A stretch of 64,000 nucleotides of DNA from the NCBI GenBank assembly GCA_025463055.1, contig JAOAPV010000038.1:62001-126000 (forward strand), read 5' to 3'. Shown in pieces: positions 6,101 through 34,327 of the stretch (its first letter is position 1; the number at the start of each line of letters is the position of its first letter). The DNA is from Candidatus Acidiferrum typicum. Lineage in GTDB: Bacteria; Acidobacteriota; Terriglobia; Acidiferrales; UBA7541. The notes under the pieces are model-generated. The model was given only the letters and a program-made list of their open reading frames with translations. It did not search any database and had not been told where the DNA came from. The position numbers were made by a program, and so were the translations under genes.

Positions 6101-6268
6101 GCACTGGCACTGAAGATCGACGCGGTCGTGCGGCAAGTGCGCCCCGATGGCTGGAGAGGTGTTTCGCCTCGCGAGCAGACTATCAAGGCAGGCTTGTATA
6201 GCGTTTTGCAGGACGTCGCCGAGGTCGAACGCCTCTTCTTGGTCATCAAAGCACAACGGGAATACTGA
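3200..6268 (+). CDS. hsdR: Type I restriction endonuclease subunit HsdR
   Basis: At 1022 residues it has the normal length and order for HsdR. The N-terminal nuclease has Asp135 and Glu149-Leu-Lys151 (ILELKNS). The SF2 translocase follows, with Walker A TQGSGKS (Lys281), the DECH box at 390-393, and GFTGTPL shortly after. A long helical C-terminus binds the methylase. It translocates DNA with ATP and cuts unmethylated DNA at a distance. The ATG directly follows the TAA of the nuclease gene with no spacer, so expression is coupled. All catalytic residues that can be checked are present, so the system looks intact. It resembles the EcoR124-type HsdR group. Confidence 0.95.
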   Translation: MNGVGNPERSTQNRVIGLFRDELNYRYLGDWTYRDGNRNIEEGLLSAWLTKNGYTLAQISAALHKLRSEADNHNRTLYGNNEAVYVLLRYGVPVKIEAGKVTETVHLINWNEPEQNDFAIAEEVTLNGNHDRRPDLVLYVNGIAIGILELKNSRVTIGDGIRQNLSNQQPEFNAWFFSTVQFVFAGNDSEGLQYGTIGTEEKYFLKWKEDEQDDSRFKLDKYLLKICEKHRLIELMHDFVLFDGGNKKLPRVHQYFGVKKAQEHVRERKGGIIWHTQGSGKSIVMVLLAKWILENNPHARVAIITDRDELDKQIAGVLKSADVVSDTDAAKVRATSGRDLMTKLGQATPRLLCSLVHKFGRNDVDDFDAFIKELESQPSKTVGEIFVFVDECHRTQSGKLHRVMKAMMPNAVFIGFTGTPLLKRDRQTSLEVFGGYIHTYKFSEAVEDEVVLDLVYEARDIDQRLGSEDKIDAWFEAKTRALNDWQKDELKKKWGTMQNVLSSKVRMDRVVADIIFDFSVKPRLSSERGNAILVASSIYEACKYFTLLQKTPFRGKCAVITSYNPLTKDVTQEETGANTETDKQFIYNTYNELLKDVEAKPGMTKTETYEDRAKALFISEPANMKLLVVVDKLLTGFDAPPCTYLYIDKSMQDHGLFQAICRVNRLDGEDKDFGYIVDYKDLFKKVENAISVYTSELDHSAGGPDPEVLLKDRLKKGKERLDQALESLVLLCEPVEAPKGELEHIHYFCGNTEIPSDLEEREPQRAALYKSTASLVRAYANIADELEPAGYNAAEITRIKTQLKHFVDLRDVIRKASGETLDLKAYEADMRHLLDTYIEADEPRKISPFDNMGLLELIVKTGIANAVATQLGGLKGDKNAIAETIENNVRRKIIKDHLSDPAYYEKMSALLDEVIAARKARAIDYEEYLKRIAELSRRVQAGYSDETPEKLDTPGKRALWNNLGQDEALALKIDAVVRQVRPDGWRGVSPREQTIKAGLYSVLQDVAEVERLFLVIKAQREY

Positions 6269-8049: not shown

Positions 8050-11000
8050 ATGCGACAACAACGTGTCGTTCAATTGTGGATGTTTTTCTTCTTTTCCAGT
8101 TTGGTACCCCAATGTATATACGGGCAGACCCAGGCTATAACCGAGGCGAACCGACAAGGCGCTGTTTGGAAAGCGAATACGATATACAACGTCGCTAAGG
8201 GCGCAAAGTATGAGCAGTTCGCTCTACTCGCGTATGCAAATTACTGTTTCGAGGTTGATCCGAACACAAAAGCCGAGGCAGTAAAAGCCGTGATTAGGAA
8301 GGCGAACGCAGAAATTGTTATCGCCAACAAGCAAGATTCCGATCCTTTGACAACGCTATACGCCGCCGCCGCGAACCTCGGGCGGATTGTCGGATCAAGT
8401 GACCCGGCTTACCAGCGGCTTGCCAAAGAGCTCCTGCAGTTGCGACCGGTTCTCAGGATTGGTAAAATTCCGTTTTCTGATGTTAGAACTAACTCGCATC
8501 TGACATGGGAATTTGGCGAAGCCGTCTTAGCACGAAGCCTCGAATTAGGCCGAGCGAATTCACACTACAATAATCTTCTAAGTGAATCGTTCGCATCAGT
8601 GGTTACCGTTCCTCCGACCAGCAGTGTCCAAGAAATCATAATGGCTAACCCGGATTTCAAGCGCGATACTCCTAGTCTAAAGTTAGCGCAAGGGTCACAA
8701 CCTTCAACTCAGGACATTCTTGATGCTTTCAAGTTGGAGACACAACGCATAATAGCGGGCATCCGCAAGAATCGTCTGCTCCTTGCCAAGCTAAATGAGC
8801 GGCTAGCATCGACCTCAGGTGTTCCTGCAGGTAAGAAAGACAAGAAGTCGGCGCAGAAAGAACACGACGACAATGATGCTGTAGACGAGTCGGAGGTTCT
8901 CATTGACGGTGGTCGCGGTTCTGTAAGCTTGCTTTCTACATTTGCGAAACTATCCGGCAACGCAGAACTGAGTCATCAAATCGAGGTCGTGGGTGGAGGC
9001 GCTTTAGATGTTCTCCAATCGATAGCCAAGTACAACAACACTATAAGTAAGATGAGTTCGTTGGCTCAGGCCGCGAGCGTCGTGTCGGTAATGGCGACTT
9101 TTGTTGGCGCTTTCGTGGCTATCGCCGAGCTTAGCTCCGGGCCTGATAACAGCAGTTCTGTATTGTCCGAACAGATTCAGTTACTGAGCCAACAGATTGC
9201 ACAACTTTCTGAGGATATGCACGCACGATTTGACAGGTTAGAACAGGGTATGACAGCAGCGTTCAATGCATTGAATGAGAATGTTCGAGAGCTATTTGTG
9301 CTACAGCAGCAGGTGTTCCTGGAGGTTGGAAAGGCCAGGCAAGACTTACGGTTGGTTGAGGCCCGCCTGGAGGAGCTACAGGAACGATTGGACACCCTCC
9401 GTGTTCAGAATGAACAATTTCTTCGAGCGTTTGCAGACCGAGAGTTTCAGCATGAACTGGCGGATTGTCTAGAACACGACAACTTTTATCCAGGTATCGC
9501 GATGTCAGCAGAGAAGTTCGGTGCATGCAGGCTTGAGTTCGCCCAGCACGGCACCACGGCTTCCAAAGACATCTTAAGCACCGGATTTGTGGCTGACTAT
9601 GATCCCGAAAATATCGCAACCCGCATCGAAGAACGCCCGATCACTGAGAACCTTAACTACTTGGCGGGTTTGGCGGAGAGTGCTTTTGGTGAAAGCGACA
9701 TGAGATCTCTTTCGGGCAACGTCGCGAGCTTGAGGGAATGGTCGTTGGCTACAGAAGCATACATCCAACTTGGGTTGGCGCATCCCAATTACATCTCCGC
9801 GGCGGTCATTTCGGCTACTGCAGCGATGTCACAGGTCGGCGAGCAGTTGCAACAAGTTGCTGGCAAGGCTCGAAGTGCCTCACTGTTTCGCAAGCTAGTC
9901 GCGAATTACAGAAGCAAAGTTCAAGAGTTTCAGCTAGCACTGCAAGCCCTTGAACGCCAGTATGAAAAAGACTATGTCAAAGGTTATGACCTGACACTCG
10001 GTCCCAAGCAGAAGACTAACTACGAGTTTCGGGCTCAGGGCGCTAATTTTCTCGAAAGTTGCTTCACCCAGGCGGTCGAAAAGGGATGGACAGCTCCAAA
10101 CATGACCTTGGCAATGCCTGCGAAAATGACCTGGTTAGTTCCTCAATGGTATGCGTCCGCCGAAGATATGGAATTGGGTGCTCTAGCAGTGTGCTTTTAC
10201 ACTAAGCCGTTTTCCTCAGAAGAGTCGGAGAAAAACCGCGTCCTGGAACTTGGTTTTGGGAGTACCCAGATATATGGGATTCGATTAACTGCCACGCCTG
10301 CCGTCAAAGTAGTGGGGTGGTTTCGCACTCGTTCGCAGACGAAGGCGATTCAAGTTTTTGAAAAGACTTTCACATTGGCTCCAGTTTGGTGGGCGACTAT
10401 CGAAGAAAAAACGGGTCAGCTTAAACCCCCGTTCTGGCCTCGCACGGGCGTGACATTTGGGCCCACTTCGGAGCAACTGCTCAGCTCGAATTGGGAGGCC
10501 GGTGAGAAGCTGAAGGAAAAGCTCGAGGCAATTGTGGCAACCGCTGAAAGGGGAAAATCTTACGATCGTTCTCCATACGCGAAGGACGACGCAGCAGTTC
10601 AGAAAGTCGTGAGCGAGTATCTTAACGAGCACGGGAGGCGGCTGTACAACGGTATTGCGGATGGAACCTTCGAACGCGATAGCATCCAACGCCTCAGTCG
10701 GCGCGTGGACGGCGCCAGGGCAGCGCTGTTGGCCTTTACTATGCTCGCTTCTTCATCGGGAGCCTCGCAGACTGATACGGTTCGTGCCATGTTCTTTGGT
10801 AAAGAGAGGCTGCCAGGCTCGCGTGACTTATTGCTCTCTTATCATTTCGCGGTTTCACAGGGCGAACTACAACAGAATAGACTCGCGGCCGAATTAGAGG
10901 AACATGGATATCAAATGAATTGTCGATCATTTATTCAAGCGATGCGGAGGCGAGACACGCATGTAGCTCAACTGTATGTCCAAGCGGGTATTGCGTCACG

Positions 11001-11331
11001 CCTTGGTGAAGCAGATCGGTCGTGGACGCTAAACGAACTGCAGCGCCTCCCCGACAGTCGGACAGCCCGCCAGCTCGCAACTGCATTTCGAGTCAAAGCA
11101 AATACTGAACATCGTCAAGGACTCCGACTTGCATATGCCGGTGAGGAGAACAGGCGGCTCGTGGCTGAGCGTCTTCAAGCTTTCGAGACGCTAGTTCCCC
11201 AAATCTTGGCAGGAAGTAGCCAGGAGCCCGTCCAAATTCCAGAAATACAATACGAAATGCACCGTTTAGAGTTCTTTAGGGATTGGGGCGCGAGTCTCCC
11301 GAATGTCAGCGATAGGACTCTTTCTCATTGA
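8050..11331 (+). CDS. Large exported coiled-coil protein of unknown function
   Basis: This protein of 1093 residues starts after an AAGGA ribosome-binding site. Residues 1-25 look like a signal peptide (short basic start, then a long Phe/Leu core). The N-terminal part (about 30-300) is helical, with a charged Lys/Asp-rich linker near 265-280. An apolar segment follows at about 338-361 (MATFVGAFVAIAEL), directly before a long heptad-rich coiled coil at about 372-462, rich in Gln, Leu and Glu. The remaining 600 residues are mixed, with no motif I recognise. The arrangement of a hydrophobic hairpin and coiled coil recalls membrane-inserting or pore-forming helical proteins, but this is only an analogy. 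It is followed 46 bp later by a DUF1573-like gene that is probably co-transcribed. Its base composition is more AT-rich than the window's core genes. Confidence 0.72.
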   Translation: MRQQRVVQLWMFFFFSSLVPQCIYGQTQAITEANRQGAVWKANTIYNVAKGAKYEQFALLAYANYCFEVDPNTKAEAVKAVIRKANAEIVIANKQDSDPLTTLYAAAANLGRIVGSSDPAYQRLAKELLQLRPVLRIGKIPFSDVRTNSHLTWEFGEAVLARSLELGRANSHYNNLLSESFASVVTVPPTSSVQEIIMANPDFKRDTPSLKLAQGSQPSTQDILDAFKLETQRIIAGIRKNRLLLAKLNERLASTSGVPAGKKDKKSAQKEHDDNDAVDESEVLIDGGRGSVSLLSTFAKLSGNAELSHQIEVVGGGALDVLQSIAKYNNTISKMSSLAQAASVVSVMATFVGAFVAIAELSSGPDNSSSVLSEQIQLLSQQIAQLSEDMHARFDRLEQGMTAAFNALNENVRELFVLQQQVFLEVGKARQDLRLVEARLEELQERLDTLRVQNEQFLRAFADREFQHELADCLEHDNFYPGIAMSAEKFGACRLEFAQHGTTASKDILSTGFVADYDPENIATRIEERPITENLNYLAGLAESAFGESDMRSLSGNVASLREWSLATEAYIQLGLAHPNYISAAVISATAAMSQVGEQLQQVAGKARSASLFRKLVANYRSKVQEFQLALQALERQYEKDYVKGYDLTLGPKQKTNYEFRAQGANFLESCFTQAVEKGWTAPNMTLAMPAKMTWLVPQWYASAEDMELGALAVCFYTKPFSSEESEKNRVLELGFGSTQIYGIRLTATPAVKVVGWFRTRSQTKAIQVFEKTFTLAPVWWATIEEKTGQLKPPFWPRTGVTFGPTSEQLLSSNWEAGEKLKEKLEAIVATAERGKSYDRSPYAKDDAAVQKVVSEYLNEHGRRLYNGIADGTFERDSIQRLSRRVDGARAALLAFTMLASSSGASQTDTVRAMFFGKERLPGSRDLLLSYHFAVSQGELQQNRLAAELEEHGYQMNCRSFIQAMRRRDTHVAQLYVQAGIASRLGEADRSWTLNELQRLPDSRTARQLATAFRVKANTEHRQGLRLAYAGEENRRLVAERLQAFETLVPQILAGSSQEPVQIPEIQYEMHRLEFFRDWGASLPNVSDRTLSH

Positions 11332-20540: not shown

Positions 20541-20568
20541 GGCTCTCTCGCCAGAGTTAGATGCAGCA

Positions 20569-20619
20569 GAGACCGTACGGTCTCATATAATTATATGCTT
20601 TAAGAGACCAGTCGGTCTC
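20569..20619. promoter_or_regulatory. Twin palindromic operators in the MFS exporter promoter region
   Basis: A perfect palindrome GAGACCGTACGGTCTC (20569-20584) and a second copy, GAGACCAGTCGGTCTC (20604-20619), share six-base arms, and their centres are 35 bp apart. The AT-rich core ATATAATTATAT between them can supply a -10 element for the leftward MFS gene. Arms of this type are typical of TetR/AcrR-family operators. No TetR gene is adjacent, so the regulator must be encoded elsewhere or outside the window. Confidence 0.65.
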
Positions 20620-20677
20620 ACGGTCGCGCGAATCTAGAGATGGCCAAGGGAGAACAATCTGCCGCTAGAAAATACTG

Positions 20678-21907
20678 CTAGCGCTGCGGGTTCGTAGTCG
20701 TACTCGTAGCGGATGATGGTGCGGATGGAACCGGCACGGGTACCAGGCGCCCGTCTGCGATTGTGTATTCTTCGCCGCCCCAGTGGATGCGGTTGGATGC
20801 AAAGCTTGCCAGCCAAACGACGAAGTGGATCGCATCCCTCAATGGGACCAGCCAAAGTTTGCGCCGCACCACATCATCGCCCACGCCCCAGATGCCGACA
20901 GTCCAAGCCATCGTCAATCGCAAAACCAAGTAGGCAATCAAGTATGCTGCAGCAATCCATGGCGCCGGCGCAATCAGCGCGGCGAGGACAGCCCAGGGCA
21001 AGCCATGCGTAAAAATCAGGCCCGCGAAAGAAAGCGGTCGACAAAGGCGCACGGTGCGGGACCAGCGCACTTGATGCTGCCAGAAGCTGCGCGCCGTCTG
21101 CGCGGGATACATCGTCCACACCGCTTCTCGTGAAAGCAAAACTGTGCCGCCCGCTTTTGCAATGCGGTGGCCTAGTTCGTAGTCGTCCGCGAGCACATCA
21201 GCAATTCCTGCAAACCCGCCGATCTTTGCGACCCATGCTTTCGTGGTCACGATTGAAGCGCCCAGCGCAAAAGTGATTCCCTCCATCCAGTTAGCCATCA
21301 GCACACCTGCAAAAAAGTCGCTCGCTGCGCCAATGGCTTCCAGCTCAGCGCCAAGATTTTTCTCAGCAATACCTCGATAGAACGAAGTTACTGCGCCGAC
21401 TCTCCGGTCGGCGAATGGTGCAACGACCTGTCTCAGATACGTTGGCGCGAGTCGTATGTCGCCGTCGGTCAAGACGAGGATTTCGTGCTGCGCCTCGTGC
21501 GCCAGCCGAACCAGCATATTGACTTTGCGATTTGCGCCTATTTGCTCCGCGCCGATGAAGAGTCGTATCCGCCGTTGCGGAAAATCTGTGATGAGCCGCT
21601 GAATCAATGGCACGGCGGGATCGGTTTCATCCCCCGCGCCGAAGAGAATTTCGTAGTTCGCATACTCCTGCCCGCAAAAGCTTGCGAAATTCTCATAAGA
21701 GCCAAAATCCACACCGCGAACAGGCTTAAGCAAGCTAACCGCCGGAGCATACGGAGCAAATTCTCGCCTACGCTTGCGAGTGAAAAATCGCAATGCCGCA
21801 AGCGTCGCTGCAATGTAATAAGCGAGCGGCGTCGCCGCAAGCACAAGCAACCAGAAACGCCACCCGGGCAACACAAAAGCATTCGCAGTAACGAGGAACC
21901 ATCTCAC
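20678..21907 (-). CDS. GT21 ceramide-glucosyltransferase/HpnI-like glycosyltransferase (second copy)
   Basis: This protein of 409 residues has an N-terminal membrane anchor, then the family start LLKPVRGVDFGSYENFASFC, the DGDIRL nucleotide-sugar metal motif, a second DDYELG acidic motif and the QVRWSRT (Q/RxxRW-type) motif, followed by C-terminal membrane helices. GT21/HpnI enzymes move a sugar from a UDP donor to a membrane lipid. The GTG start overlaps the stop of the preceding paralogue by 4 nt. The two copies share the whole layout, so this is a tandem duplication whose second member may use another donor or lipid. Confidence 0.85.
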   Translation of the reverse strand: MRWFLVTANAFVLPGWRFWLLVLAATPLAYYIAATLAALRFFTRKRRREFAPYAPAVSLLKPVRGVDFGSYENFASFCGQEYANYEILFGAGDETDPAVPLIQRLITDFPQRRIRLFIGAEQIGANRKVNMLVRLAHEAQHEILVLTDGDIRLAPTYLRQVVAPFADRRVGAVTSFYRGIAEKNLGAELEAIGAASDFFAGVLMANWMEGITFALGASIVTTKAWVAKIGGFAGIADVLADDYELGHRIAKAGGTVLLSREAVWTMYPAQTARSFWQHQVRWSRTVRLCRPLSFAGLIFTHGLPWAVLAALIAPAPWIAAAYLIAYLVLRLTMAWTVGIWGVGDDVVRRKLWLVPLRDAIHFVVWLASFASNRIHWGGEEYTIADGRLVPVPVPSAPSSATSTTTNPQR

Positions 21908-23124
21908 TTCACGCCTCGCGCGTTCTGTTGCAACGTCTCGGTCCGTGTATCGCGAATCGGCTCCAGTAGGCGATTTCGGACGCGATACTCAAGTCCCCGC
22001 CAGGTTATCCTATTCGTGAAAAATCCGGCGAACCAGACCGCGGCGCTGATGGCATCGCGCGCGGGCGCCAGCCATAGTTTCGAGGCAATGTTGCCATCTT
22101 GTAACCCCCAAACGCCTGCTGCATAAGCCATGCTGAGCCGCAAAGCCAAATAAACCCCAACAAAAGCGGCCGCCGTCCCGATCCAGCCCGAACCGGCAGC
22201 TACAACCGCCGCCAAAACCGCCCACGGCAAGCCATGCGTGAAAATCATTCCTGCATATCCCGCCGGCCGCACATTCCGCAAGCCAATCGCCCAGCGCAAC
22301 TCATGCCGCAAGAAATCGCCGAATTTCTCCTGCGGAAAAACCATCGAGACGGGTTCGCGCATCAACTCCACGCGGTGTCCTTTGCTTGCAATGCGATTTC
22401 CCAGCTCGAAATCGTCGGAATGATGATTGGCTATTGCCTCCCACCCGCCGATTTCCGCCAATCGCTCCTTAGTTGTAGCCATCGTCCAGCCAAAGGCAAA
22501 TTGCAGTTTGCCCTCGAGCCGTCGCGCCACCAGCGCACTCGGCACTGAGTCCATGCACATTCCGAGCATGTCCAGATCTGCAGCCAACGTACCCCCGCCA
22601 GCGCAGCGATAGAAACATGTAACCGCGCCCACACGCCTGTCGGCAAACGGTGCAACCACTTCGCGCAAGTAATCAGGCTGTACGCGAACGTCGCTGTCCG
22701 TCATCACCAGTAATTCGTAGCGCGCTTCCTTCACCAGGGTGCACAGGCTGTTCACCTTGTTGTTTTCGCCCACGCGCGGCACGTCGGTGACAAACCGAAT
22801 CGATCGATCCGGAAAATCCCTTTGCAATTTCTCAATTACCGGAATCACCGGGTCCTGCGGATCAGCCATCGCAAAAACTAATTCGTATTCCGGATAATCT
22901 AGCCGGCAGTAGCTCGCAAAGTTTTCGTAAGCTCCGGGATCTACGCCGCGCACAGCCTTCAGTATGCTGACCGGCGGCGCAAAGGAGTCATCGCGGGGCG
23001 GCAATCTGCGGAGGCCACGAAAATATTCAATGGTGCAGTAGAGAGACAGCAGGTAGTACACCAGCGGACCGGCCGCCAACACCAGCACGGCCAAGCGGAG
23101 CATCGACAGAACCGTTTCGCTCAT
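21904..23124 (-). CDS. hpnI: Hopanoid-associated glycosyltransferase HpnI-like (GT21)
   Basis: This protein of 406 residues has the same domain order as its downstream paralogue: an N-terminal helix, ILKAVRGVDPGAYENFASYC, a TDSDVRVQ metal motif, DDFELG, ELRWAIG, then membrane helices. In hopanoid producers HpnI adds N-acetylglucosamine to bacteriohopanetetrol as the first step toward the cyclitol ether head group, and HpnJ then rearranges the sugar. Here HpnJ lies 2.7 kb upstream in the same transcription direction. The genes form a run (HpnJ, two small transporters, ArnT-like, HpnI-like twice) with gaps under 10 bp after HpnJ. The deacetylase HpnK is not in the window. Confidence 0.75.
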   Translation of the reverse strand: MSETVLSMLRLAVLVLAAGPLVYYLLSLYCTIEYFRGLRRLPPRDDSFAPPVSILKAVRGVDPGAYENFASYCRLDYPEYELVFAMADPQDPVIPVIEKLQRDFPDRSIRFVTDVPRVGENNKVNSLCTLVKEARYELLVMTDSDVRVQPDYLREVVAPFADRRVGAVTCFYRCAGGGTLAADLDMLGMCMDSVPSALVARRLEGKLQFAFGWTMATTKERLAEIGGWEAIANHHSDDFELGNRIASKGHRVELMREPVSMVFPQEKFGDFLRHELRWAIGLRNVRPAGYAGMIFTHGLPWAVLAAVVAAGSGWIGTAAAFVGVYLALRLSMAYAAGVWGLQDGNIASKLWLAPARDAISAAVWFAGFFTNRITWRGLEYRVRNRLLEPIRDTRTETLQQNARGVK

Positions 23125-23129
23125 AGCGT

Positions 23130-25022
23130 CTATTGCGAGGCGGCCACGGAAGTGACCGGGTGATTAGCGTACACCGCTTTGCCGCCGCTTTCGGCCAGCA
23201 AATAACTTCCAGCCGCAGAGAGCCGCTGCGCTGCCGCTGCCCGTTGCTCTGAAGGAACAAAAAGAAAAACTCGTTTCGGTCCCGCCCACAATGCCAAAAA
23301 TTCCGGATCAGTCAAAAAAATATGTGGCGCATCCGCATACCGCGAACCCGCCTCCAGATTGTTATAGCGCCCATTCCACAAGAGCAATTGCCGATTGGTG
23401 TAAAACGCCACGCCAGACATAGCGTCGAATTCACCGTAAAGCGCCAGCGTATCCGCCGGCGTGATTTGCGGCAAAACTTTCGTAATCAGTGGCCTTGAGG
23501 ACAAATAGGGCCCAAAAACACCCAAGGCAATATTCGAGGCGAAAAAGAATACCGCCATCGTGATCGCCAGGCAGATCGCCGCGCCTTCAGCCCGCCCCTT
23601 GCGACGCAGCCACCACGCAGCCGCCAAGCCAAAAAGAAACGCGGCGGCGGCCAGCGCTGAAGGCAATCGCAAAAGCGCAAAAGCTTGCGGCGTCAAATCC
23701 AAAATGTGCGCCATCGACACGCGATAGAAATCGTTTTCGTGCTCTTTCAACAGCGAAGAAATGTCGCCATTCACCGGCACTTTGGCGGAAATCCACAACA
23801 TGGCGATCAGCACCGCTGCCAGCGCCGCACCCACCGCCGCCAGTGCGGCTTGCATGCGCACAACCCACCGCTTGCCTTGTTCCTCAGCCCTGGCCAAGCC
23901 GATTCCAAGCAGCATGGCAAGTGCCGGCCACGCGCCAAAACTGTAGTACTCCATTCGCGAACCAATCGTCAGCGAGAAAAACAGCAAAATAAACCCGGCC
24001 CACAAAACAAGCAGCAATCGCGCCTGTCCTTCAGCCGATAAATTCTTCCAAGTTCGCGGCCGCGGAATGCAGCGCAAAACGCCCGGGAGAAAAATGCTCC
24101 ACGGGAAAAACCAAATCAGGTGCGCGCCAAGCCAAAGCCATAGGGGCACTGCCTCATAATCGGGAGGATACCGCGTGCCGATCGCGCGCTTGAGATGCTC
24201 GTTGATAAAGTAAGACCAGAAAAAACTGTTAGCGCGCAGGCTCGCAAACACGTGCCACGGAGCCGCCACCAGCACGAAAATCGCAACACTCGAAAACAAA
24301 TGTAGTTCTCGCCATCGCTCCCAGGAGCGTGTAGCGGCGATAAACAAAAAGAGGATAGCCACTGGGAAAATCACGCCGATCAGTCCGCGCGTCAGCATCG
24401 CCAGACCAGTGATCGCGGCTGCGCCCCAATACGCCACGCGAGGGTTTAGTGATCCCGTCCAGCCGCGCAGAAATAGATAGAAAATCGACATGAATTCCAG
24501 GGCGTAAATCGCTTCTGGAATCATGATGCGCGTAAACAGAAAAAATCCAGCGCTGGTACACACCGCCAGTCCGCTGTACAACCCTGCGCGAACCCCGAAA
24601 AATCGGCGCGCAAATTCATTCACCAGCAGCACCAAGCCAATCATGGCCAGCGCGACTGGCAGGCGCGTTGAAAATTCGTGCTGCCCCAGAGCAGCGTAGC
24701 TCATCGCCACGGCCCAGTAATGCAGCGGCGCCTTCATCAGGTAGCGAATGCCGTTCATGTACAGAATGACCCAGTCATGCCTTTGCAGCATTTCGCGCGA
24801 AACCATAGCGTGCGATGCGTCTGCATCGTCTAGCAGGGCGGGAAAGCCGGCATTTCCGAGGTATATCGCAGCGGAGAGAACAATCAACAGTATGACAGCG
24901 CTAGCGCGGCTCAATTCAGAAGAGCCTGAGCCGGCGTCTTCCAAACTACTCTTTTCCTCCGAAAAATTGTTTTCAACCTGCCGCAACAAGCGCAACTCCC
25001 ACGCATACCAGCACCACACCAA
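23130..25022 (-). CDS. ArnT-like lipid-linked glycosyltransferase (PMT/GT83 family)
   Basis: This protein of 630 residues is predicted to have 12-13 membrane helices. The first periplasmic loop holds the catalytic acidic pair in DDADASHAMVSREM, characteristic of ArnT and related polyprenyl-phosphate sugar transferases. It moves a sugar from an undecaprenyl carrier to an envelope lipid outside the inner membrane. The annotated start overlaps the preceding transporter gene by 50 nt; a TTG just before the overlap end may be the true start. Its stop is 5 nt before the HpnI-like gene. Its context beside HpnJ/HpnI suggests a hopanoid or glycolipid acceptor rather than lipid A, but this is inference. 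Confidence 0.85.
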   Translation of the reverse strand: MVWCWYAWELRLLRQVENNFSEEKSSLEDAGSGSSELSRASAVILLIVLSAAIYLGNAGFPALLDDADASHAMVSREMLQRHDWVILYMNGIRYLMKAPLHYWAVAMSYAALGQHEFSTRLPVALAMIGLVLLVNEFARRFFGVRAGLYSGLAVCTSAGFFLFTRIMIPEAIYALEFMSIFYLFLRGWTGSLNPRVAYWGAAAITGLAMLTRGLIGVIFPVAILFLFIAATRSWERWRELHLFSSVAIFVLVAAPWHVFASLRANSFFWSYFINEHLKRAIGTRYPPDYEAVPLWLWLGAHLIWFFPWSIFLPGVLRCIPRPRTWKNLSAEGQARLLLVLWAGFILLFFSLTIGSRMEYYSFGAWPALAMLLGIGLARAEEQGKRWVVRMQAALAAVGAALAAVLIAMLWISAKVPVNGDISSLLKEHENDFYRVSMAHILDLTPQAFALLRLPSALAAAAFLFGLAAAWWLRRKGRAEGAAICLAITMAVFFFASNIALGVFGPYLSSRPLITKVLPQITPADTLALYGEFDAMSGVAFYTNRQLLLWNGRYNNLEAGSRYADAPHIFLTDPEFLALWAGPKRVFLFVPSEQRAAAAQRLSAAGSYLLAESGGKAVYANHPVTSVAASQ

Positions 25023-25341
25023 TCCACCGGGCAGGACTTACTTCTTCGCGCAAAATATATTTCGCGCCCAGCGTGCCCACAACATAACTGAGCGCCGATG
25101 CAGGAATTACAAAACTGATCGGCCGCCAGGAAAGCAACACCAGCAAAGAATAAAACGAAAGCGCCATCAGCGGGACGCCCGCCCAGAACCATCCATTGCG
25201 CATTGCGCGTTTCAGGAACTCGAATAGCTCACGAGGGCGGAGGCGTTCGGGCTCGCCGGTCGCCTTCATTCCATGCGTAATCGCAATTTCTCCGCCGGTG
25301 CTGCTCAGTATCAGCACACCGAGCAGCAGCGCGACCCGCAT
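24973..25341 (-). CDS. Small EamA/SMR-type membrane protein (flippase-like), second of a pair
   Basis: This protein of 122 residues is counted from the ATG at 25341; an upstream start would add an unlikely Ala/Gly-rich tail. It has four hydrophobic helices and the ending IGVVLVCVGVALVAAG, as in half-size EamA/SMR proteins such as ArnE/ArnF. ArnE/F move aminoarabinose-lipid carriers across the membrane as a pair. This gene overlaps the related upstream gene by one base (TAATG) and is followed by an ArnT-like enzyme. Flipping of a lipid-linked sugar is therefore a reasonable inference; drug export is the alternative. Confidence 0.75.
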   Translation of the reverse strand: MRVALLLGVLILSSTGGEIAITHGMKATGEPERLRPRELFEFLKRAMRNGWFWAGVPLMALSFYSLLVLLSWRPISFVIPASALSYVVGTLGAKYILREEVSPARWIGVVLVCVGVALVAAG

Positions 25342-25781
25342 TATGCCGCCGCCTGTCGCGGTTCCCGCGCTAGCGCTTCCGTGGTGCGCGGCCGCGTCTG
25401 CCCCACCAGCAAGACGCCGGCGCAAATCAGCACCACTCCAATCCAGCGCCGCGGCGAAACATGTTCGTGCAGGAAGATCACTGCGAGCAGTGTCAGCAGC
25501 GCGTAGCCGAACGCTCCGGCGGGCATTACGTAACTATAATCCGCCCAACTCAGAACGGTCATGTAGCTGAGCATGAATCCAGCGAGGAAGGCGATTCCGA
25601 TCCAGATGGTTCCATTGGTGATGGTGGCGAGGAAGGCGTGCTGTAAACCTGACTGAGAAATTTCCACGGCGCCGATTTTTGTCATGCCGCGCTTAAGCAT
25701 CAGGTCGCCGACGTTGGCGCACACAACCATTGCGAGGATCATGACCAGGGTCTTGATCCGAATCCGTAACTCGTTTCCCAT
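25341..25781 (-). CDS. Small EamA/SMR-type membrane protein (flippase-like), first of a pair
   Basis: This protein of 146 residues has four membrane helices. Conserved elements of the half-size EamA/SMR group are visible: NVGDLMLKRGMTKIG after the first helix, YVMPAGAFGYALLTLL in the third, and EHVSPRRWIGVVLICAGVLLV in the last. The matching end of the next gene (EEVSPARWIGVVLVCVGVAL) shows the two are paralogues that may form a heterodimer like ArnE/ArnF. It starts 9 bp after the HpnJ gene ends. Confidence 0.78.
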   Translation of the reverse strand: MGNELRIRIKTLVMILAMVVCANVGDLMLKRGMTKIGAVEISQSGLQHAFLATITNGTIWIGIAFLAGFMLSYMTVLSWADYSYVMPAGAFGYALLTLLAVIFLHEHVSPRRWIGVVLICAGVLLVGQTRPRTTEALAREPRQAAA

Positions 25782-25790
25782 GTGGTGAAA

Positions 25791-27293
25791 TTAATCGTTT
25801 CCGGAAGCAGACGGCGGCGCCGGCACGGCAATCATTGTTTTTTCGATGTCGCCGCCCTCGCGCACCCACTTCCAGCGCTCCGAGCGGAGCTTCAGGAAAT
25901 CGACCGCTTCATGGTAGAGGCGCTTACGCTCATTGCCGTCCCATAGGGCTTCGCGCACGATGCGCCACACAACCTTCGGGCGGAAATAGTATTCGTCGTA
26001 GAAGCGATTCACGCCGCCCATCATCTCCGCCTTGGACAAATGCGGGTATTCGATATGCGGCAACTGATGGCCACCGGAATCGGCCAGGGCTTCGACTTTC
26101 AGGAAGCCTTGCTTAGCCATGGAATCGTGCAATTCCGTGCCTGGCATGGCGTGTGCCAGGGAAACCTGGATTGTTTCGCAGTCGAGTTCCTTGGCGAAAT
26201 CGATGGTCTTCTGAATCGTTTCGCGCGTTTCGCCGGGCAAGCCGATGATGAAATCGCCATGGACGCGAATGCCGACTTTGCGGCAATTCTTCATGAAGGT
26301 GCGCGCCATTTCAACGGTCGCGCCTTTCTTGATGTTTTTAAGAATTTGCGGGTCTCCGGATTCAAAGCCGACGATGAACAGCCGCGCACCAGCGTCGGCC
26401 ATGCCCTTCAACGTCTCGTAGTCGCTATGCACACGTGCCGTCGAGGACCAACGGAACTTGAGTGGCTTGAATTTTTGGCACAAATCCAGGACGCGATCCT
26501 TACGAATGTTAAAGGTGTCGTCGTCGAAGAAGATTTCCTTCATCTGCGGGAAATATTCGATAGCTTGCTTTACTTCGCGTGCCACGTTTTCCGTGGAGCG
26601 CGTGCGCCACGCGTGTCCTGAAATTGTTTGCGGCCACATGCAGAAGGTGCATAGCGCCGGGCATCCGCGTGTGGTGTAGAACGAAACGAACGGGTGCAGC
26701 AAAAAAGGCACGTTGTAGTTTTCGATCTTGAGGTCGCGCTTATAGATATCGGTGGCAAATGGAAGAGCATCCAGCTCCGCGGTGTGCAATTGCGGCCGCT
26801 CCGCGTTGTGCACAATCTTGCCGTCCTTGCGATAGCTGACACTCAGAATTTCGCTGAGTGGCTTGCCGTGCGCGTACTCGACTACGGAGTGATCAAACTC
26901 GCCGCGAGTTACAAACTCAATGTCCTCGCTGGCATTTAAAGTCTGATCCGGCTTGATGTGGCCGTGCGGGCCGACAAATGCGATCTTCAGGCTGGGATTA
27001 ACTTCTTTGATTTTGCGGATGAGCTTAACGTCGCTTTCAAACCCAACCGTGGAGGTGAACAGCACTAGAAATTCGTAGTCTTTGCAGATTTCGACGGTTT
27101 GCTGCCAGTTGACTTTGGCAGGCGAAGCGTCCAACAGACGGCTTCCCGGAATCATACCTGCCGGGTAGGTTAGCCAAACCGGGTACCAATAGGACTCAAT
27201 CTCGCGTGTCGCGGGCCATCGCGAACTCGCTCCGCCATCAAAATTTTCAAAGCTGGGCGGATTCAACAGCAAAGTCTTCATCACATCCGGCAT
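25791..27293 (-). CDS. hpnJ: Hopanoid biosynthesis radical SAM protein HpnJ
   Basis: This protein of 500 residues has the HpnJ N-terminus (TLLLNPPSFENFDGG after a short lead), a B12-binding-like Rossmann region, and the radical SAM core with the 4Fe-4S cysteines Cys211, Cys215 and Cys218 in CPALCTFC. EIFFDDDTFN and a GFESGD segment follow at the expected places. HpnJ contracts the amino sugar of bacteriohopanetetrol glycoside to the cyclitol ether. The start at 27293 has GAGGGTGAAG upstream; a second ATG at 27281 is closer to the usual family start. It leads a run of envelope-lipid genes. Confidence 0.88.
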   Translation of the reverse strand: MPDVMKTLLLNPPSFENFDGGASSRWPATREIESYWYPVWLTYPAGMIPGSRLLDASPAKVNWQQTVEICKDYEFLVLFTSTVGFESDVKLIRKIKEVNPSLKIAFVGPHGHIKPDQTLNASEDIEFVTRGEFDHSVVEYAHGKPLSEILSVSYRKDGKIVHNAERPQLHTAELDALPFATDIYKRDLKIENYNVPFLLHPFVSFYTTRGCPALCTFCMWPQTISGHAWRTRSTENVAREVKQAIEYFPQMKEIFFDDDTFNIRKDRVLDLCQKFKPLKFRWSSTARVHSDYETLKGMADAGARLFIVGFESGDPQILKNIKKGATVEMARTFMKNCRKVGIRVHGDFIIGLPGETRETIQKTIDFAKELDCETIQVSLAHAMPGTELHDSMAKQGFLKVEALADSGGHQLPHIEYPHLSKAEMMGGVNRFYDEYYFRPKVVWRIVREALWDGNERKRLYHEAVDFLKLRSERWKWVREGGDIEKTMIAVPAPPSASGND

Positions 27294-27875: not shown

Positions 27876-29258
27876 TCAGCCGATAGTGTTGGTGGCACTT
27901 CTTATGACGTGGGTTGCGTCGGTAGCGCTCATGAGGATTTCCCAGATGCGGTCGATCCAGTCGAGGTGCTCCGGCTTCATTAAGACGGAGCGAAGGCAAG
28001 TGATCGTTTCGCGGTCGCGGCGAACACTATGAGGCAGCAAACTGAAGAGGGTGACCGGGAGGTCCGCGACGGCGAGGTGGAGGCCGCGCTGGGCAGCGGC
28101 GGCGAAGATGGAACGGGATTGGGCGGAGATTTCGGAGATGCTGGCGGCTTGTGGCGCAAAAACGACGATGTCCAACTCGGGTGCGAACGCGGTAACGAAG
28201 CGATCGTCGCTTCTCGCTTTTTTGTAGAGAGCAAGCGCCGCGGACCTGCTGCGCTCGAGGCGTTGCGCAAATTCACCGCGCTTCACCAGCGGGAGGAGCT
28301 TTTGCGTTGCCCAAAGCGCGGCAGCGGAGGCGCCCGGGCGCGAGCACTCGAGGCTGATCTCGCCCAAATGCAATTCGGCGGAACTAAAGTAGGTGTACGG
28401 CGAATTGTGCTTGTACAAGGTTCCGACATTCGGATCGCGGAAGAGCACGCAGCCGCAGCCATAGGGTTGCAAGCCGTGCTTGTGTGGATCGATGACGATG
28501 GAATCCACTTCAGTGATGCGGGAGAAAGCAGCGTTTGCGTTCGCGCCGAGATTGTCGCTCAGCGTGAAATATCCGCCGTACGCAGCATCGGCGTGCGCGC
28601 GAAAGCCAAACTTGCTGCGCAATTCCAGGATTTCGGGTAACGGATCGACCGACCCTGTCGCAGTTGTGCCCATGGTGACGACGACGGTTCCGACGTCGCC
28701 GTGCTCCAAGCGTCTTCGCAGCGCATCAATATCCATGCGGGCTTCGGAATCCACGGGCACGGATTCAAATTCGAGTTGCAAGACACTGCTGATGCGATTG
28801 TGCGTGTAATGGGCTTGCGTACTGGCCAAGATTTTCTTTCCGGGACGAAGCTGCCCAGCGACCCAGAGCGCTTCGAGATTGGCCATGGTGCCGCCGCCAC
28901 AGAGATGACCGAGGAAATTCTCCCAGCCGAACATGGAGGCAATTTGCCCGACCGCTTCTTTTTCCATTGCGGAGGTCGCGCGGCCGCCGTCGAGAGCGTG
29001 ATTATTCGGATTAATCCACATGGCTAACGCGTAGGCCAGACGAGCGACTGGATGCGGGGGCTTGAGCATCTGCCCTGCATAGAGGGGATGGAAATAGGGG
29101 TAATTGTCGTGCAGCCGCTCGGCCGCTGCGGTCAAAACTTCTGACAATTGTTTTTGGTCGATCGCGTGCGCGTCGAATGCAGGAAGCCCGGCGAATCCGG
29201 TGTCGAGCTTTTTCAGCGCGTCAAGAAACGCGGCTAGAGTTTCTTGTTCAAGCTGCAC
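27876..29258 (-). CDS. PLP-dependent decarboxylase-like protein (group II / aspartate-aminotransferase fold)
   Basis: This protein of 460 residues starts at a GTG. It has the PLP enzyme landmarks [11 protein letters not shown] (phosphate cup), [19 protein letters not shown] (the Asp that binds the pyridine nitrogen) and DPHKHG, in which Lys260 is the Schiff-base lysine. The N-terminus ([23 protein letters not shown], cut here to its landmarks) matches group II amino-acid decarboxylases such as tyrosine and glutamate decarboxylases. The substrate cannot be read from sequence. It is transcribed leftward after the efflux operon and is separated from it by a hairpin cluster. Confidence 0.85.
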
Positions 29259-29388: not shown

Positions 29389-30738
29389 TCACTGCCAGAC
29401 TTTATCAAGCTGGCCGGCCGTCTGCAGCAAATCCAATTGGGCCTGCTGGCGCTGGAAATTAGCGTCGAGGTAGGCCATCCATTTGTCGTTCTCTTCGAGG
29501 CGAGCTCTTTCCACTTCACGCACGTTGATTTTGCCTTCGGCGAATTGCGATTGCAGGACGGCCAGATTTTGCTGAGTGAGTTGCAGCTCCAAACGCGCGA
29601 CTTCCTTTGCAGCGTCGCGTTCGCGCAAGCGCCGCGTCTTCACGCGGACGGCCGCACTGATTTCACTCTTCTTGCTGGCCAACTGCGCCTTGGCGACATC
29701 CAGATTCACTTGAGCCAGCGCGATATTTGCGCGGGTTTGAGCGCTGAAGAGCGGCAGTTGAATCTGCACACCAGCATTGAAGTTATCGGGTTGGAATGTC
29801 TTGAAGAATTGCGAATAGTTGTTAAAGTTGGCCAGCCGGCTATAAATCGCTACCAACTGCAGGGTCGGGTAATATCCGCGTTTTTCGCCGGCCAGACGGA
29901 ATTCCCTGGCGCGGACATCGGATTGGGCGACACGTAGCGCGACATTATCCTGCAAGGCCATGGCCACCAAATTCGCCCCTTCTTGCTCGGCTATGCCGGG
30001 AAGATCCTCGGGCGTTATTTCGATTTGGGTATTTTCGGCTAAGCCGGTTTGAGCGTGCAGCGTGACCTCCAATTCATCTTGACGGCCCTCGAGTTGGAGG
30101 ATGCGCTGCACCACGCGGGCCTTGGTGAGCTGATCCCTGGTCACGGAAACGGGTAGCTCAAAATTTTCCTTTTCGCGCTGCTGGGTAACGGAAAGAATTT
30201 TGTCAGCACTTTCCTCTTCTTTGCGGAGCAGCTCGAGGGAATGGCGCACCATGGAAAGCTCGAGATAGGTGGAGGCGGTGCGTACGATGACGCCGTTTCT
30301 CGCGTCGTCCAGAAGAATCCTTTGTGACTTGGCTTGCTCTTGCTGTTCTTTGGCTTGTCCGCTCAGCGGTTTGTTGAAGACCTCTTCCGTGTAGGTGACA
30401 CTAAACAGCGCCGGGGCACGGCCGCCGGGAGTCTCGGGAATTCCGAGAGTGTAGCCGGCACCAGAGCCAGCGTAGAGGTTGGGCAAGAATTGGGCTCTCG
30501 TGATCATCGCGGAACGGTCGGCGAGGCTGGCTTGGAGCTTGGCGATTTGAATGTCGCTGCTGTTTTGGAGAGCTAATTCGATGGCGCGCTTTAGGGTGAG
30601 GGATACGGCGGACGTGCCCGTTGGAATCGGCGGCGTTTCTTGCGCGCGTGCGGCAAAGGCGGCAGTGAAAAGCAAGGCTGCGCCGATGCAGTTACTAAGG
30701 TATTTAGCTTTCCAGCTCGTGCCACCTGTTCCTGTCAT
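29389..30738 (-). CDS. TolC-family outer membrane efflux protein
   Basis: This protein of 449 residues has a signal peptide at about residues 18-32, ending in AAFAARAQE. Two structural repeats of long helices and beta segments follow: LTLKRAIELALQNSSDIQIAKLQ opens the first, and DNVALRVAQSDVRAREFRLAGE lies in the second. This is the outer-membrane channel of a tripartite exporter. It closes a leftward operon with an HlyD adaptor, a TPR protein and an FtsX-type permease; 82 bp separate it from the permease. The operon has no ATPase gene. Confidence 0.92.
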   Translation of the reverse strand: MTGTGGTSWKAKYLSNCIGAALLFTAAFAARAQETPPIPTGTSAVSLTLKRAIELALQNSSDIQIAKLQASLADRSAMITRAQFLPNLYAGSGAGYTLGIPETPGGRAPALFSVTYTEEVFNKPLSGQAKEQQEQAKSQRILLDDARNGVIVRTASTYLELSMVRHSLELLRKEEESADKILSVTQQREKENFELPVSVTRDQLTKARVVQRILQLEGRQDELEVTLHAQTGLAENTQIEITPEDLPGIAEQEGANLVAMALQDNVALRVAQSDVRAREFRLAGEKRGYYPTLQLVAIYSRLANFNNYSQFFKTFQPDNFNAGVQIQLPLFSAQTRANIALAQVNLDVAKAQLASKKSEISAAVRVKTRRLRERDAAKEVARLELQLTQQNLAVLQSQFAEGKINVREVERARLEENDKWMAYLDANFQRQQAQLDLLQTAGQLDKVWQ

Positions 30739-30820: not shown

Positions 30821-32019
<1,199 letters not shown>

Positions 32020-32023
<4 letters not shown>

Positions 32024-33075
32024 GACGGGAGCCTTGGGCCTGCGCTTTCGTCTTTTCTCAGGCGCTTCAACGCTTCACGGGCAGTTTTGTTTTTGGGCTC
32101 TAATTTCAGCGCCGTTTCATATTCCTGAATAGCCGCTTGAGTGTTTTGCTGATTCTCGTAGAGATGGCCGAGCCATTCGTGGGCCCGCCAGGGAGAGGGA
32201 AAAGTGTTGCGGAGAGGGGCGCGCTTCAGGTAGTCGCGGAGCAAGCGCTCGGAGTCTTCGTGATGTTCGCTCCTCATTATCCATGCCACGGCGCGGTAAA
32301 ACTCTGACCTTGGATCGGAAGGAGCAACTCTTTCACCTTCGGCCGCGACGACCAGGAGCCGCTCGGGTTGATTGTGCTTCATGGCATGGTCGCCGATATC
32401 GAAGATGAGCTCGGGAGATTTGGGATGCAGCTCCAGGGCCTTATCGAATTCAGCGTCGGCGGCGGCGAAATCCTTTTTTTGGCGGCGGCAATTGCCCGCG
32501 GCGTAGTGGCCTTCGGCGGCATCCATTGAGGCGAGCTTGGCGATCTCGGGAGCAGCTTTATCCTCGCCACCACCCGCAATGGAGGGAGCGCTGCAATCAA
32601 ATTCGATAAGGGCTTGGTATGCGGAGAAGTTTTTGTCGTCGAGCTGGACGGCTCGTTCGAATTCCTTGCGCGCTTTCTTGGCAAGGGACAGCGCGGAGAA
32701 CATTCCGGCGTGGTCGGCTTTTTCGCCATAAACTCTGCCGAGCCACTCGTGGTACACGGAATTCCGGGGATCGAGAGCGACGGCTTTTTCGGCGCTGGTG
32801 ATTGCGGCGTCATGCTGCTGGGACTCATAGTAGGTCTTGGCAAGAAGCAAATCTATTTCGGGGTCGCGAGGATTCTGTTCTGCGGCTCGTTTTAGGAGTT
32901 GGGCCGCCTTGGAGTAGTCGCTGGCTTCGTAGGCTTGGTAGGCGGCTTCAAGACTTGGATTACGCGGCGGGTTGTCGGCTGCTGCGCGAGTATTCAGAAG
33001 GGCTTGCGGCAGGAGGAGCGCGGCAAAAAGCGCGATCCTAATTCGATTCACTTCGGCCCCGAATATAGCTGGCAT
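32020..33075 (-). CDS. Exported TPR-repeat protein
   Basis: This protein of 351 residues has a signal peptide ending near LLNTRAAA. At least six tetratricopeptide-type repeats follow (for instance the NPRDPEIDLLLAKTYYESQQ and HPKSPELIFDIGDHAMKHNQ units). It sits between the adaptor and the permease of the efflux operon, overlapping the permease gene by 4 nt. The ATG at 33075 overlaps the adaptor gene by 38 nt; a GTG at 33051 would give a cleaner signal peptide. It is likely a periplasmic scaffold, a role inferred from repeats and context. Confidence 0.85.
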
Positions 33076-34327
33076 CGGTGTTCACGATTCTTACCGGCAT
33101 GCCGTCCTTGAGATCGACATCGCCGGGCAACGCGACCATCTCGCCTTCTTGCAGGCCGCTGAGGACCTCGTAGTTTGTGGCGTCGGCGATACCGACACGG
33201 ATTTCGCGCTTTTGCAAAGTAGCTTTGCCGACGCCCAGGGCGTTGCGCAAAACCACAAAGACAAACCTCTGCCCGCCTTCCGCTTCCACGGTGCCGCGCG
33301 GCACGGTCAAAACGTTGATGCGCTCATGAGAATTGATGCGCACACTGACGTTGATGTTGGGTAGCAGCTCCAATTTATCGTTGTTCACTTCGCAAAGTAG
33401 CTCGCCCACGCTGCGGGCGCCACGGGCCACAACTTGTTTTGGAATCACCTGGGTTTTGCCCATCCAAGTGCGATTGGGAAGCGCGTCCCAGGTGATGCGC
33501 ACGGGTTCGCCAGGTTCGAGGCCGCCGAGTTCGGGCTCGTCGATGAAGGCGCGCACGCGAACTTTGTGGAGGTCGGCCATTTCGGCGAGCAAGTCGCCCA
33601 CTTTCACATAGTCACCCGGTTTTGCGGGAAGGGAGTAAAGCGTGCCATCGGCGGGAGCAGCGATACGGCCGTCGCGGACTTTTTCTTCAAGGGCAGCGAC
33701 CAGGCTGCGCAACTGCTGGACCTGGAGGGAGGTACGGTTGGCATCGAGCTTCACGCCATGCACAAACTCTTGCTTGACGGCGGTGAGCTGTTTCACCTGG
33801 GCCTCGGCTTTGGCGAGGTCGAGGTCGTTAATCGCCAGCTCATCCTTGGTGGCGGCTTGTTGGGCGATGAGGCGCTCAAGGGAATCGTGATTGCGTTGGA
33901 GGCGGTCGCGCAGCGCGATGGCGGCGGCAAGCTGGCCTTCGGTTTTGGCGGTTTCGTCAGAGCGGCCGCCAGCCTGAGCGGCGCCCAGATCATCTTCGGC
34001 GCGGAGAAGCTTGGAGCGAGCATCGGCAAGCTGGGCGGCGGCGTCCTTGACGTTCAATTCGAGCAGGAGTTGGCCCTTTTTCACGGCTTGGCCTTCGACG
34101 GCGCTAATTCTTTCGATGAAGGTATCGAGCTGCGCGCGGACTATGAAGGGGGCGATGGGCTCAACTTTTCCGTTGCTTGAAATGGAGGAAACGACATTTT
34201 CGCGAATGGGCGAGACCGCGGAGATCTTGGCGACGGGCTGGCGACCGCTAAGACGCACGAGTGCGAAGGCCACTACGGCGGCTAAGACGAGAAAAATCAG
34301 TATACGGTTTCGCAGCCTACGGTCCAT
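33038..34327 (-). CDS. HlyD/MacA-type periplasmic adaptor protein
   Basis: This protein of 429 residues has an N-terminal anchor (ILIFLVLAAVVAFALV), a first half lipoyl-like segment (SSNGKVEPIAPFIVRAQLDT), a long coiled-coil hairpin (about 85-225), the second lipoyl half (IAAPADGTLYSLPAKPGDYV) and beta-barrel domains (LAEMADLHKVRVRAFIDEPE onward). It bridges the permease and TolC. First gene of the leftward efflux operon, about 410 bp from the divergent ABC genes. Confidence 0.92.
   Translation of the reverse strand: MDRRLRNRILIFLVLAAVVAFALVRLSGRQPVAKISAVSPIRENVVSSISSNGKVEPIAPFIVRAQLDTFIERISAVEGQAVKKGQLLLELNVKDAAAQLADARSKLLRAEDDLGAAQAGGRSDETAKTEGQLAAAIALRDRLQRNHDSLERLIAQQAATKDELAINDLDLAKAEAQVKQLTAVKQEFVHGVKLDANRTSLQVQQLRSLVAALEEKVRDGRIAAPADGTLYSLPAKPGDYVKVGDLLAEMADLHKVRVRAFIDEPELGGLEPGEPVRITWDALPNRTWMGKTQVIPKQVVARGARSVGELLCEVNNDKLELLPNINVSVRINSHERINVLTVPRGTVEAEGGQRFVFVVLRNALGVGKATLQKREIRVGIADATNYEVLSGLQEGEMVALPGDVDLKDGMPVRIVNTDASYIRGRSESN

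Follow-up and report, generated by a model that had tools for sequence, protein, structure and literature searches.

Hopanoids are sterol-related lipids of bacteria that leave molecular fossils, and acidobacteria are common soil inhabitants. Passages in PMC12583986 describe the route to the cyclitol ether of bacteriohopanetetrol (BHT) as the work of HpnI, HpnK and HpnJ, with HpnN as hopanoid transporter to the outer membrane. For acidobacteria, parts of the survey by Sinninghe Damste et al. of 2017 (PMC5462960) report hpnJ near hpnC, hpnD, hpnE, hpnG and hpnA in some strains, a fused hpnC-hpnD in most genomes of subdivision (SD) 2, and hpnK as missing in SD1 and SD3. The arnBCADTEF lipid A operon of Escherichia coli K-12 combines an ArnT-family transferase with two small proteins of the small multidrug resistance (SMR) type. 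Elements of these systems meet in a run of six genes on a 64,000-nucleotide stretch of DNA from Candidatus Acidiferrum typicum (GCA_025463055.1, contig JAOAPV010000038.1, positions 62,001 to 126,000 of the forward strand), referred to as the window throughout. The run is a real, conserved and partly described hopanoid locus, and the analysis presented here moves the emphasis from its ArnT-like gene to an SMR pair behind hpnJ and to the missing HpnK.

The genes for HpnJ, SMR1, SMR2, an ArnT-like transferase, HpnI_a and HpnI_b all lie on the minus strand and run from window position 27293 to 20678 (Table 1), confirming the gene identities and the leftward run proposed in an earlier note on this DNA. 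With intergenic gaps of 9, −1, −50, 5 and −4 bp at the called starts, they look like one operon. The start of SMR2 is best placed at the ATG at 25341, giving a one-base overlap with the SMR1 stop. Judged from the sequence, the ArnT-like gene probably starts at the TTG at 24944 behind GGAGGA rather than at the TTG at 25022, and its gap to SMR2 would then be 28 bp. A downstream gene for an EmrB-type pump of the major facilitator superfamily was left out of the run, since it is 137 bp away behind a stretch (20541-20677) that by eye appears palindromic and operator-like.

HpnJ exceeds the cut-off of the curated family TIGR03471 with 719.3 versus 577.6 bits. The radical SAM cysteines C211, C215 and C218 (CxxxCxxC) are invariant across 11 aligned HpnJ sequences, and the Pfam domains Radical_SAM (84.8 bits) and, barely, B12-binding (32.3 bits, cut-off 32.1) are matched. 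Among the matches listed, the closest named HpnJ loci are 83-89% identical, several of them from metagenome-assembled genomes (MAGs) labelled gp2. A MAG labelled Gammaproteobacteria (L156) carries an HpnJ 74% identical to that of the window, pointing to transfer or misbinning. Both HpnI proteins exceed the TIGR03472 cut-off of 310 (324.4 and 324.3 bits); in a quick tree HpnI_a stands in a clade of its own with 8 rows (SH-aLRT 99) and HpnI_b in a separate one with 11 rows (SH-aLRT 100). Behind HpnJ, 10 of 21 same-genus loci have at least two HpnI matches on its strand.

To follow the neighbourhood of HpnJ, 120 loci were collected from a phylum sample, from same-genus, order and class relatives, and from the best 80 of at least 550 confirmed scan matches, and were annotated with profile HMMs built from the fetched neighbourhoods; the sample leans to relatives of the window. 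Merging six identical pairs left 114 distinct loci, and exclusion of four with less than 1.5 kb downstream left 110, with seven further genus loci outside this count. Two SMR genes on the same strand within 3.5 kb downstream of HpnJ, with intervening genes such as HpnK allowed, were found at 98 of the 110 distinct loci. Loci with HpnJ and the pair extend to MAGs labelled Brocadiaceae, Deltaproteobacteria and Nitrospirae. In a panel of 149 genomes drawn from the phylum, HpnJ exceeds the cut-off in 20 and is split into two pieces in one more (G103); 19 of these 21 genomes, window included, have the pair within 3.5 kb. The exceptions are G130, with the pair about 8 kb off, and G029, which has no pair and an HpnL-like gene behind HpnK. 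In G096 and G123 (L045, L046) the run reads HpnJ–HpnK–SMR–SMR–HpnI.

Within the genus, 22 of 24 relatives have a close HpnJ, and all 22 loci were fetched. The SMR pair stands behind HpnJ in all 21 that have downstream DNA, and an arrangement kept in 21 of 21 loci is not chance. The full order HpnJ-SMR-SMR-ArnT-HpnI-HpnI is found in only three of the 21 (L084, L095, L237). Conservation of the run in other acidobacteria, which the earlier note suggested checking, is seen for HpnJ-SMR-SMR and not for the complete order, in which ArnT is variable. Among 20 HpnJ-less regions around HpnI, YdjC or HpnH (357 kb), SMR genes occur in one, beside another HpnI.

Both small genes just miss the Pfam EamA cut-off (26.1 and 27.5 versus 28.2) and stay below the equivalog cut-offs for ArnE/ArnF (32.0 and 30.2 versus 92 bits; 28.4 versus 99 bits). 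SMR1 and SMR2 are homologous to each other (hhalign probability 100). Their AlphaFold models have pLDDT values of 87.9 (SMR1) and 92.8 (SMR2), and in Foldseek the nine best matches of each are EmrE or Gdx, with probabilities up to 1.00, TM values of 0.40-0.51 for SMR1 and query TM values of 0.49-0.64 for SMR2, and weak E-values (≥0.036 and ≥0.026, respectively). The models thereby place both proteins in the EmrE/Gdx-type SMR fold, at weak E-values. Residue columns were counted over those of the 120 loci that have the genes and over the window, with identical pairs kept. In the column that we take to be that of EmrE Glu14 (three before a conserved Gly), no Glu occurs in 109 SMR1 and 107 SMR2 rows, EmrE itself lying outside the alignment; the residue is mostly Ala, Ser, Gly, Asn or Thr. 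According to passages in a review (PMC9574504), lipid-moving SMRs often lack the central Glu and have Asn in its place, a statement that the pair appears to fit only partially. Right after the conserved glycine of helix 1, SMR1 has Asp in 85 and Asn in 22 of 109 rows, and SMR2 has Glu or Asp in 105 of 107, while E. coli ArnE and ArnF have Gln there in our alignment. It is an attractive idea that this acid might face an amino-sugar head group.

From gene content, gene order, conservation and the SMR-like fold we infer a possible sequence of events. HpnI, present in two copies, would add a hexosamine-type sugar to BHT on the cytoplasmic side, and HpnJ would contract this sugar to the cyclitol ether or a close relative. 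SMR1 and SMR2 would then flip the decorated hopanoid as a heterodimer to the periplasmic leaflet, which is also the role that we propose for HpnL in Proteobacteria. A set of HlyD, TPR, MacB and outer-membrane efflux protein (OEP) genes upstream may take it further to the outer membrane, the task reported for HpnN. The ArnT-like enzyme of this species and some relatives would add a further sugar in the periplasm, drawing on a polyprenyl-phosphate donor, and an ArnC-like transferase beside a YdjC deacetylase on contig C109 of the same genome is a candidate maker of this donor. That the run serves hopanoid head groups at all is very probable; flipping of the decorated hopanoid by the SMR pair is slightly favoured, and the complete scheme with flipping, export and an optional ArnT step has in our view an even chance of being right.

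Several observations weigh against this scheme. Twelve of the 110 HpnJ loci have no pair within 3.5 kb and ten of these show no HpnL-like gene either, which means that not every locus holds a flippase gene; among the twelve, L047 has a pair about 8 kb away, L159 carries a single SMR gene and the sequence of L156 stops 2.3 kb behind HpnJ. Two of the 24 same-genus relatives lack a close HpnJ, and of five genomes with HpnI-HpnK and no HpnJ over cut-off, only two (G066, G037) have an adjoining SMR gene. In the own genome HpnK, which the published route to the cyclitol ether includes, reaches only 197.7 of the required 232.6 bits. The MacB-type gene matches no ATPase domain, its Pfam hits being MacB_PCD and FtsX only. 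Among the 85 loci that extend for 8 kb behind HpnJ, only 9 have an ArnT-like gene on either strand and most have none; this count leaves aside PMT_2 genes outside our ArnT profile, for example c16 in L096 and in L098.

In favour of the scheme, an HpnL-like gene is found at 2 of the 12 HpnJ loci without the SMR pair versus 0 of the 98 with it (Fisher p 0.011); this test is small, uses a three-sequence model, ignores relatedness and compares contigs of different length. One of the two matches, L034, is itself part of the model and is also found by the NCBIfam HpnL family with 111.7 bits (cut-off 195.65). HpnL as the universal alternative was rejected, as 10 of the 12 pair-less loci lack an HpnL-like gene as well. 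At E 0.001, a search of the own genome for HpnL (TIGR03476) found nothing, and none of the 15 class genomes has an HpnL match.

SMR genes that adjoin HpnI and HpnK without HpnJ, and a further HpnI with SMR company in the own genome, suggest that the SMR link may be to glycosylated hopanoids and not to ring contraction alone. The latter region (L137, contig C104:21000-40000) has SMR gene(s) near a third HpnI that stays below the cut-off (269.7 bits), together with HlyD, ABC ATPase, MacB, epimerase-like, LPG_synthase_TM flippase-like, ArnT-like and asparagine-synthase-like genes, several of these labels being taken from cluster relatives; by gene content it would be a second glycolipid-type locus. 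In three genomes without HpnJ over cut-off (G066, G085, G113; L231, L232, L235), HpnI-HpnK are followed by an open reading frame that by eye resembles a DegT/ArnB-type aminotransferase, with one SMR gene in between in G066. Perhaps these genomes hold another amino-sugar hopanoid route.

The run might make only BHT glucosamine or BHT cyclitol ether by the known route; a YdjC paralogue on C109 would then do the work of HpnK, and ArnT would be an unrelated hitchhiker. The earlier note had named HpnI and HpnJ as the known makers of the cyclitol ether; both families are indeed over cut-off, whereas HpnK, the third enzyme, was omitted there and is below it here. HpnK exceeds the cut-off in 10 of the 149 panel genomes, in 5 adjoining HpnJ and in 5 without HpnJ over cut-off. 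In the 15 genomes of the window's class and in G095, only lower-scoring YdjC proteins (147-207 bits) are present elsewhere. The known route gains from the finding that all 21 HpnJ-positive panel genomes have an HpnK-family match, as well as from L161, a gp5 MAG, where the YdjC paralogue and its GT2 partner lie directly behind HpnJ–SMR–SMR–HpnI. In a tree of 32 YdjC sequences, however, 11 rows are set apart by a 100/100 split from the 21 YdjC beside HpnJ/HpnI. These 11 belong to 7 of the 15 class genomes, to G095, to second copies in G063 and G096, and to L161; the other 8 class genomes were judged by score alone. G063 and G096 carry the paralogue beside a true HpnK, and ten fetched paralogue regions (L122-L131) hold no hpn gene clusters. 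The C109 match lies on the far side of the split and was rejected as a plain HpnK, leaving it as a possible stand-in only. ArnT-like genes of different tree groups in the run also speak against a mere repetition of the known route, which we consider rather unlikely. The paralogue may replace HpnK, HpnJ may act without deacetylation, or the YdjC/ArnC-like pair may feed ArnT.

The ArnT-like protein matches Pfam PMT_2 (55.9 bits) and, over residues 34-409, the solved ArnT 5ezm (E 7.5e-33), placing it in the GT-C/ArnT superfamily, and misses the ArnT equivalog NF009784 (110.4 versus 567 bits). In the genus, HpnJ is followed by a same-strand ArnT-like gene at 6 of 21 loci and in the window (7 of 22), and at two loci such a gene is on the other strand; as the sequence reaches just 2.3 kb behind HpnJ in L236 and 4.7 kb in L240, ArnT or a second HpnI could lie beyond it there. 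The ArnT of the window forms a group (100/99) with the ArnT proteins of G170, G155 and G158, and in G155 and G158 the gene is placed between HpnI copies. With L095 and L148, whose ArnT-like genes belong to two other groups, three tree groups in all occur behind HpnJ on the same strand. This variable presence and the several tree groups suggest that ArnT joined the run repeatedly and is no core component. Addition of a further sugar to the hopanoid by this enzyme, suggested by gene position, is a tentative assignment that we hold to be somewhat doubtful.

A donor-based explanation ties the SMR pair to this enzyme: the pair would be an ArnE/F-like flippase of a polyprenyl-phosphate sugar, ArnT would transfer the sugar to lipid A or hopanoid, and HpnI/HpnJ would be separate neighbours or acceptor makers. 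The position of the 5ezm relative directly behind the pair and the weak ArnE/ArnF matches agree with it, as do the ArnC-like GT2 adjoining the YdjC deacetylase on C109 (224.7 bits, cut-off 529) and another ArnT-like gene near lpxD and an lpxL-like gene on C72. The ArnE/ArnF scores of about 30 bits are, however, far from the family cut-offs, and arnA, arnB, arnC and arnD find no match among the run genes (arnA, arnB and arnD were searched in the run only; the sub-cut-off ArnC relative is the one on C109). The pair is present at 98 of 110 HpnJ loci and the ArnT-like gene at 9 of 85. The SMR pair as donor flippase for ArnT was set back for this persistence without ArnT and is in our judgement improbable; the same observation separates the ArnE/F-like pair and ArnT, which the earlier note had treated as one unit (98 of 110 against 7 of 22 in the genus). 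Since HpnJ keeps the pair even where ArnT is missing, flipping of the hopanoid itself is the likelier role of the two proteins. On C72 (L002 14473-18976), hpn genes adjoin lpxD, an lpxL-like acyltransferase and the further ArnT-like gene (185.5 bits, below cut-off).

The own genome, rated 98.9% complete, carries Shc, hpnE, a fused hpnCD, hpnA and hpnG (98 bits, below the 187-bit cut-off) on C72, and HpnH (550.6 bits) on C144. The hopanoid link drawn earlier, which hinged on shc, hpnH and hpnG, is thereby borne out, and the source genome looks like subdivision 2. Across the panel, all 21 HpnJ-positive genomes have HpnH over the cut-off, compared with 14 of the remaining 128 (Fisher p 1.2e-16, ignoring relatedness). 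At 27 of 72 loci with 6 kb on each side, HpnJ with the pair is close to hpnE or hpnCD; two pair-less cyanobacterial loci near hpnE/hpnCD, resting on weak matches (31-89 bits), are outside the 27. A role of HpnJ and HpnI on a non-hopanoid lipid such as a ceramide or diacylglycerol glycoside, suggested by the GT21 Pfam match of HpnI, the ceramide glucosyltransferase family to which it belongs (one such enzyme is the best solved relative of HpnI_a, E 6e-26) and the low HpnK score, is very improbable in view of these two associations and of two HpnI proteins over the HpnI cut-off.

For the last step of the proposed hopanoid route, the upstream genes are of interest. Where the sequence reaches 2.5 kb upstream of HpnJ, 64 of 97 loci have a same-strand OEP gene within this distance. 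The combination of HlyD, TPR and OEP occurs upstream on the same strand in 46 of the 74 loci that extend for 8.5 kb, and that of HlyD, MacB and OEP in 21. All 22 fetched same-genus loci have HlyD, TPR, MacB, OEP and a pyridoxal-phosphate (PLP)-dependent decarboxylase upstream of HpnJ. HpnN (TIGR03480) is over its cut-off in none of the 149 panel genomes, the own best match having an E of 2e-10; six genomes have HpnN-like proteins that score 374-433 bits, and all six lie outside the HpnJ-positive group. The HlyD–TPR–MacB–OEP set may thus serve in export, as judged from its position and from HpnN not reaching the cut-off. In family f2, HpnI lies away from HpnJ behind two MacB/FtsX-type genes in 5 of 7 fetched regions (L132, L133, L135, L136, L140). 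This MacB–MacB–HpnI arrangement was considered as a split-off partner of the window's MacB and set back at only 30-34% identity; an export system shared with f2 is a lead, not a result.

A more far-reaching version can be imagined for acidobacteria with HpnJ. Here the two SMR proteins would form a heterodimer devoted to flipping composite hopanoids, a case of SMR proteins acting on a triterpenoid lipid, and would replace HpnL, while the adjacent MacB-type set would replace HpnN. HpnJ would use a different glycoside and need no HpnK, and ArnT-type enzymes would lead to doubly glycosylated hopanoids on the periplasmic face. In this full form we regard it as speculative and unlikely.

Table 1. 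Genes of the run and of the neighbourhood upstream of hpnJ, with window coordinates.
Feature	Position	Strand	Evidence
hpnJ: B12-binding radical SAM protein	25791..27293	-	TIGR03471, 719 bits; cluster cysteines C211, C215, C218
SMR1: small multidrug-resistance-type (ArnE/F-like) membrane protein, 146 aa	25341..25781	-	EamA and ArnE/F below cut-off; model
SMR2: second SMR-type protein, 122 aa from ATG 25341	24973..25341	-	ArnE below cut-off; model; homologous to SMR1
ArnT-like GT-C glycosyltransferase	23130..24944 (ORF opens 25022)	-	PMT_2, 55.9 bits; ArnT 5ezm
hpnI copy a (HpnI_a): GT21-type glycosyltransferase	21904..23124	-	TIGR03472, 324.3 bits
hpnI copy b (HpnI_b): GT21-type glycosyltransferase	20678..21907	-	TIGR03472, 324.4 bits
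PLP-dependent decarboxylase, upstream of hpnJ	27876..29258	-	Pfam Pyridoxal_deC
Outer-membrane efflux protein (OEP), proposed export set	29389..30738	-	Pfam OEP, 116 bits
MacB/FtsX-type permease	30821..32023	-	Pfam MacB_PCD and FtsX only
TPR protein, proposed export set	32020..33075	-	many TPR families
HlyD/CusB-type membrane fusion protein, proposed export set	33038..34327	-	HlyD_D23 and HlyD_3

Elsewhere in the window, type I restriction specificity and R subunits are encoded at 969-6268, and an open reading frame of 1093 residues at 8050-11331 has no Pfam match.

In the open-access literature, as far as covered, no link of SMR, ArnT or MacB to hopanoid head groups was found, in agreement with the earlier statement that no described pathway has this gene set. 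Two papers on Burkholderia thailandensis (PMC6849406, PMC7835334), dealing with colistin resistance and lipid A, contain hopanoid, ArnT and EmrE as words. The words 'EmrE' and 'transport' are absent from the main text of the 2017 survey (PMC5462960). In its passages on strain KBS83, it mentions 'two additional genes' between the hpn clusters and hpnJ; the KBS 83 contig (L222) has two SMR genes between hpnJ and hpnE, which fits this remark. Strains of SD1 and SD2 should not be ruled out as makers of composite hopanoids merely for a missing hpnK: by the survey's own account, BHT and its cyclitol ether yield one and the same product under the Rohmer degradation that it used, and it could not check the matter (PMC5462960).

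Among the described systems, the acidobacterial clusters of the 2017 survey have in common with the present case hpnJ near other hpn genes in some strains, a missing hpnK and a fused hpnC-hpnD. The locus shares with the Burkholderiaceae hpnI/hpnJ/hpnK plasmid loci (L226, L227) the curated families HpnI and HpnJ and a flippase-like membrane gene nearby. HpnL is near hpnJ in both Burkholderiaceae loci viewed, one HpnL with a weak flippase-like-domain match. A second hpnI also occurs in L226 and is common to both systems. The window differs from these loci in having no HpnK over cut-off, an SMR pair in the place of HpnL, and an ArnT-like gene. Unlike the SMR pair of the E. coli K-12 arn operon, the pair described here follows hpnJ and does so elsewhere mostly without an ArnT-like gene. 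The SMR pair beside hpnJ is a testable candidate for hopanoid flipping, and the upstream export set a candidate for the step that follows.

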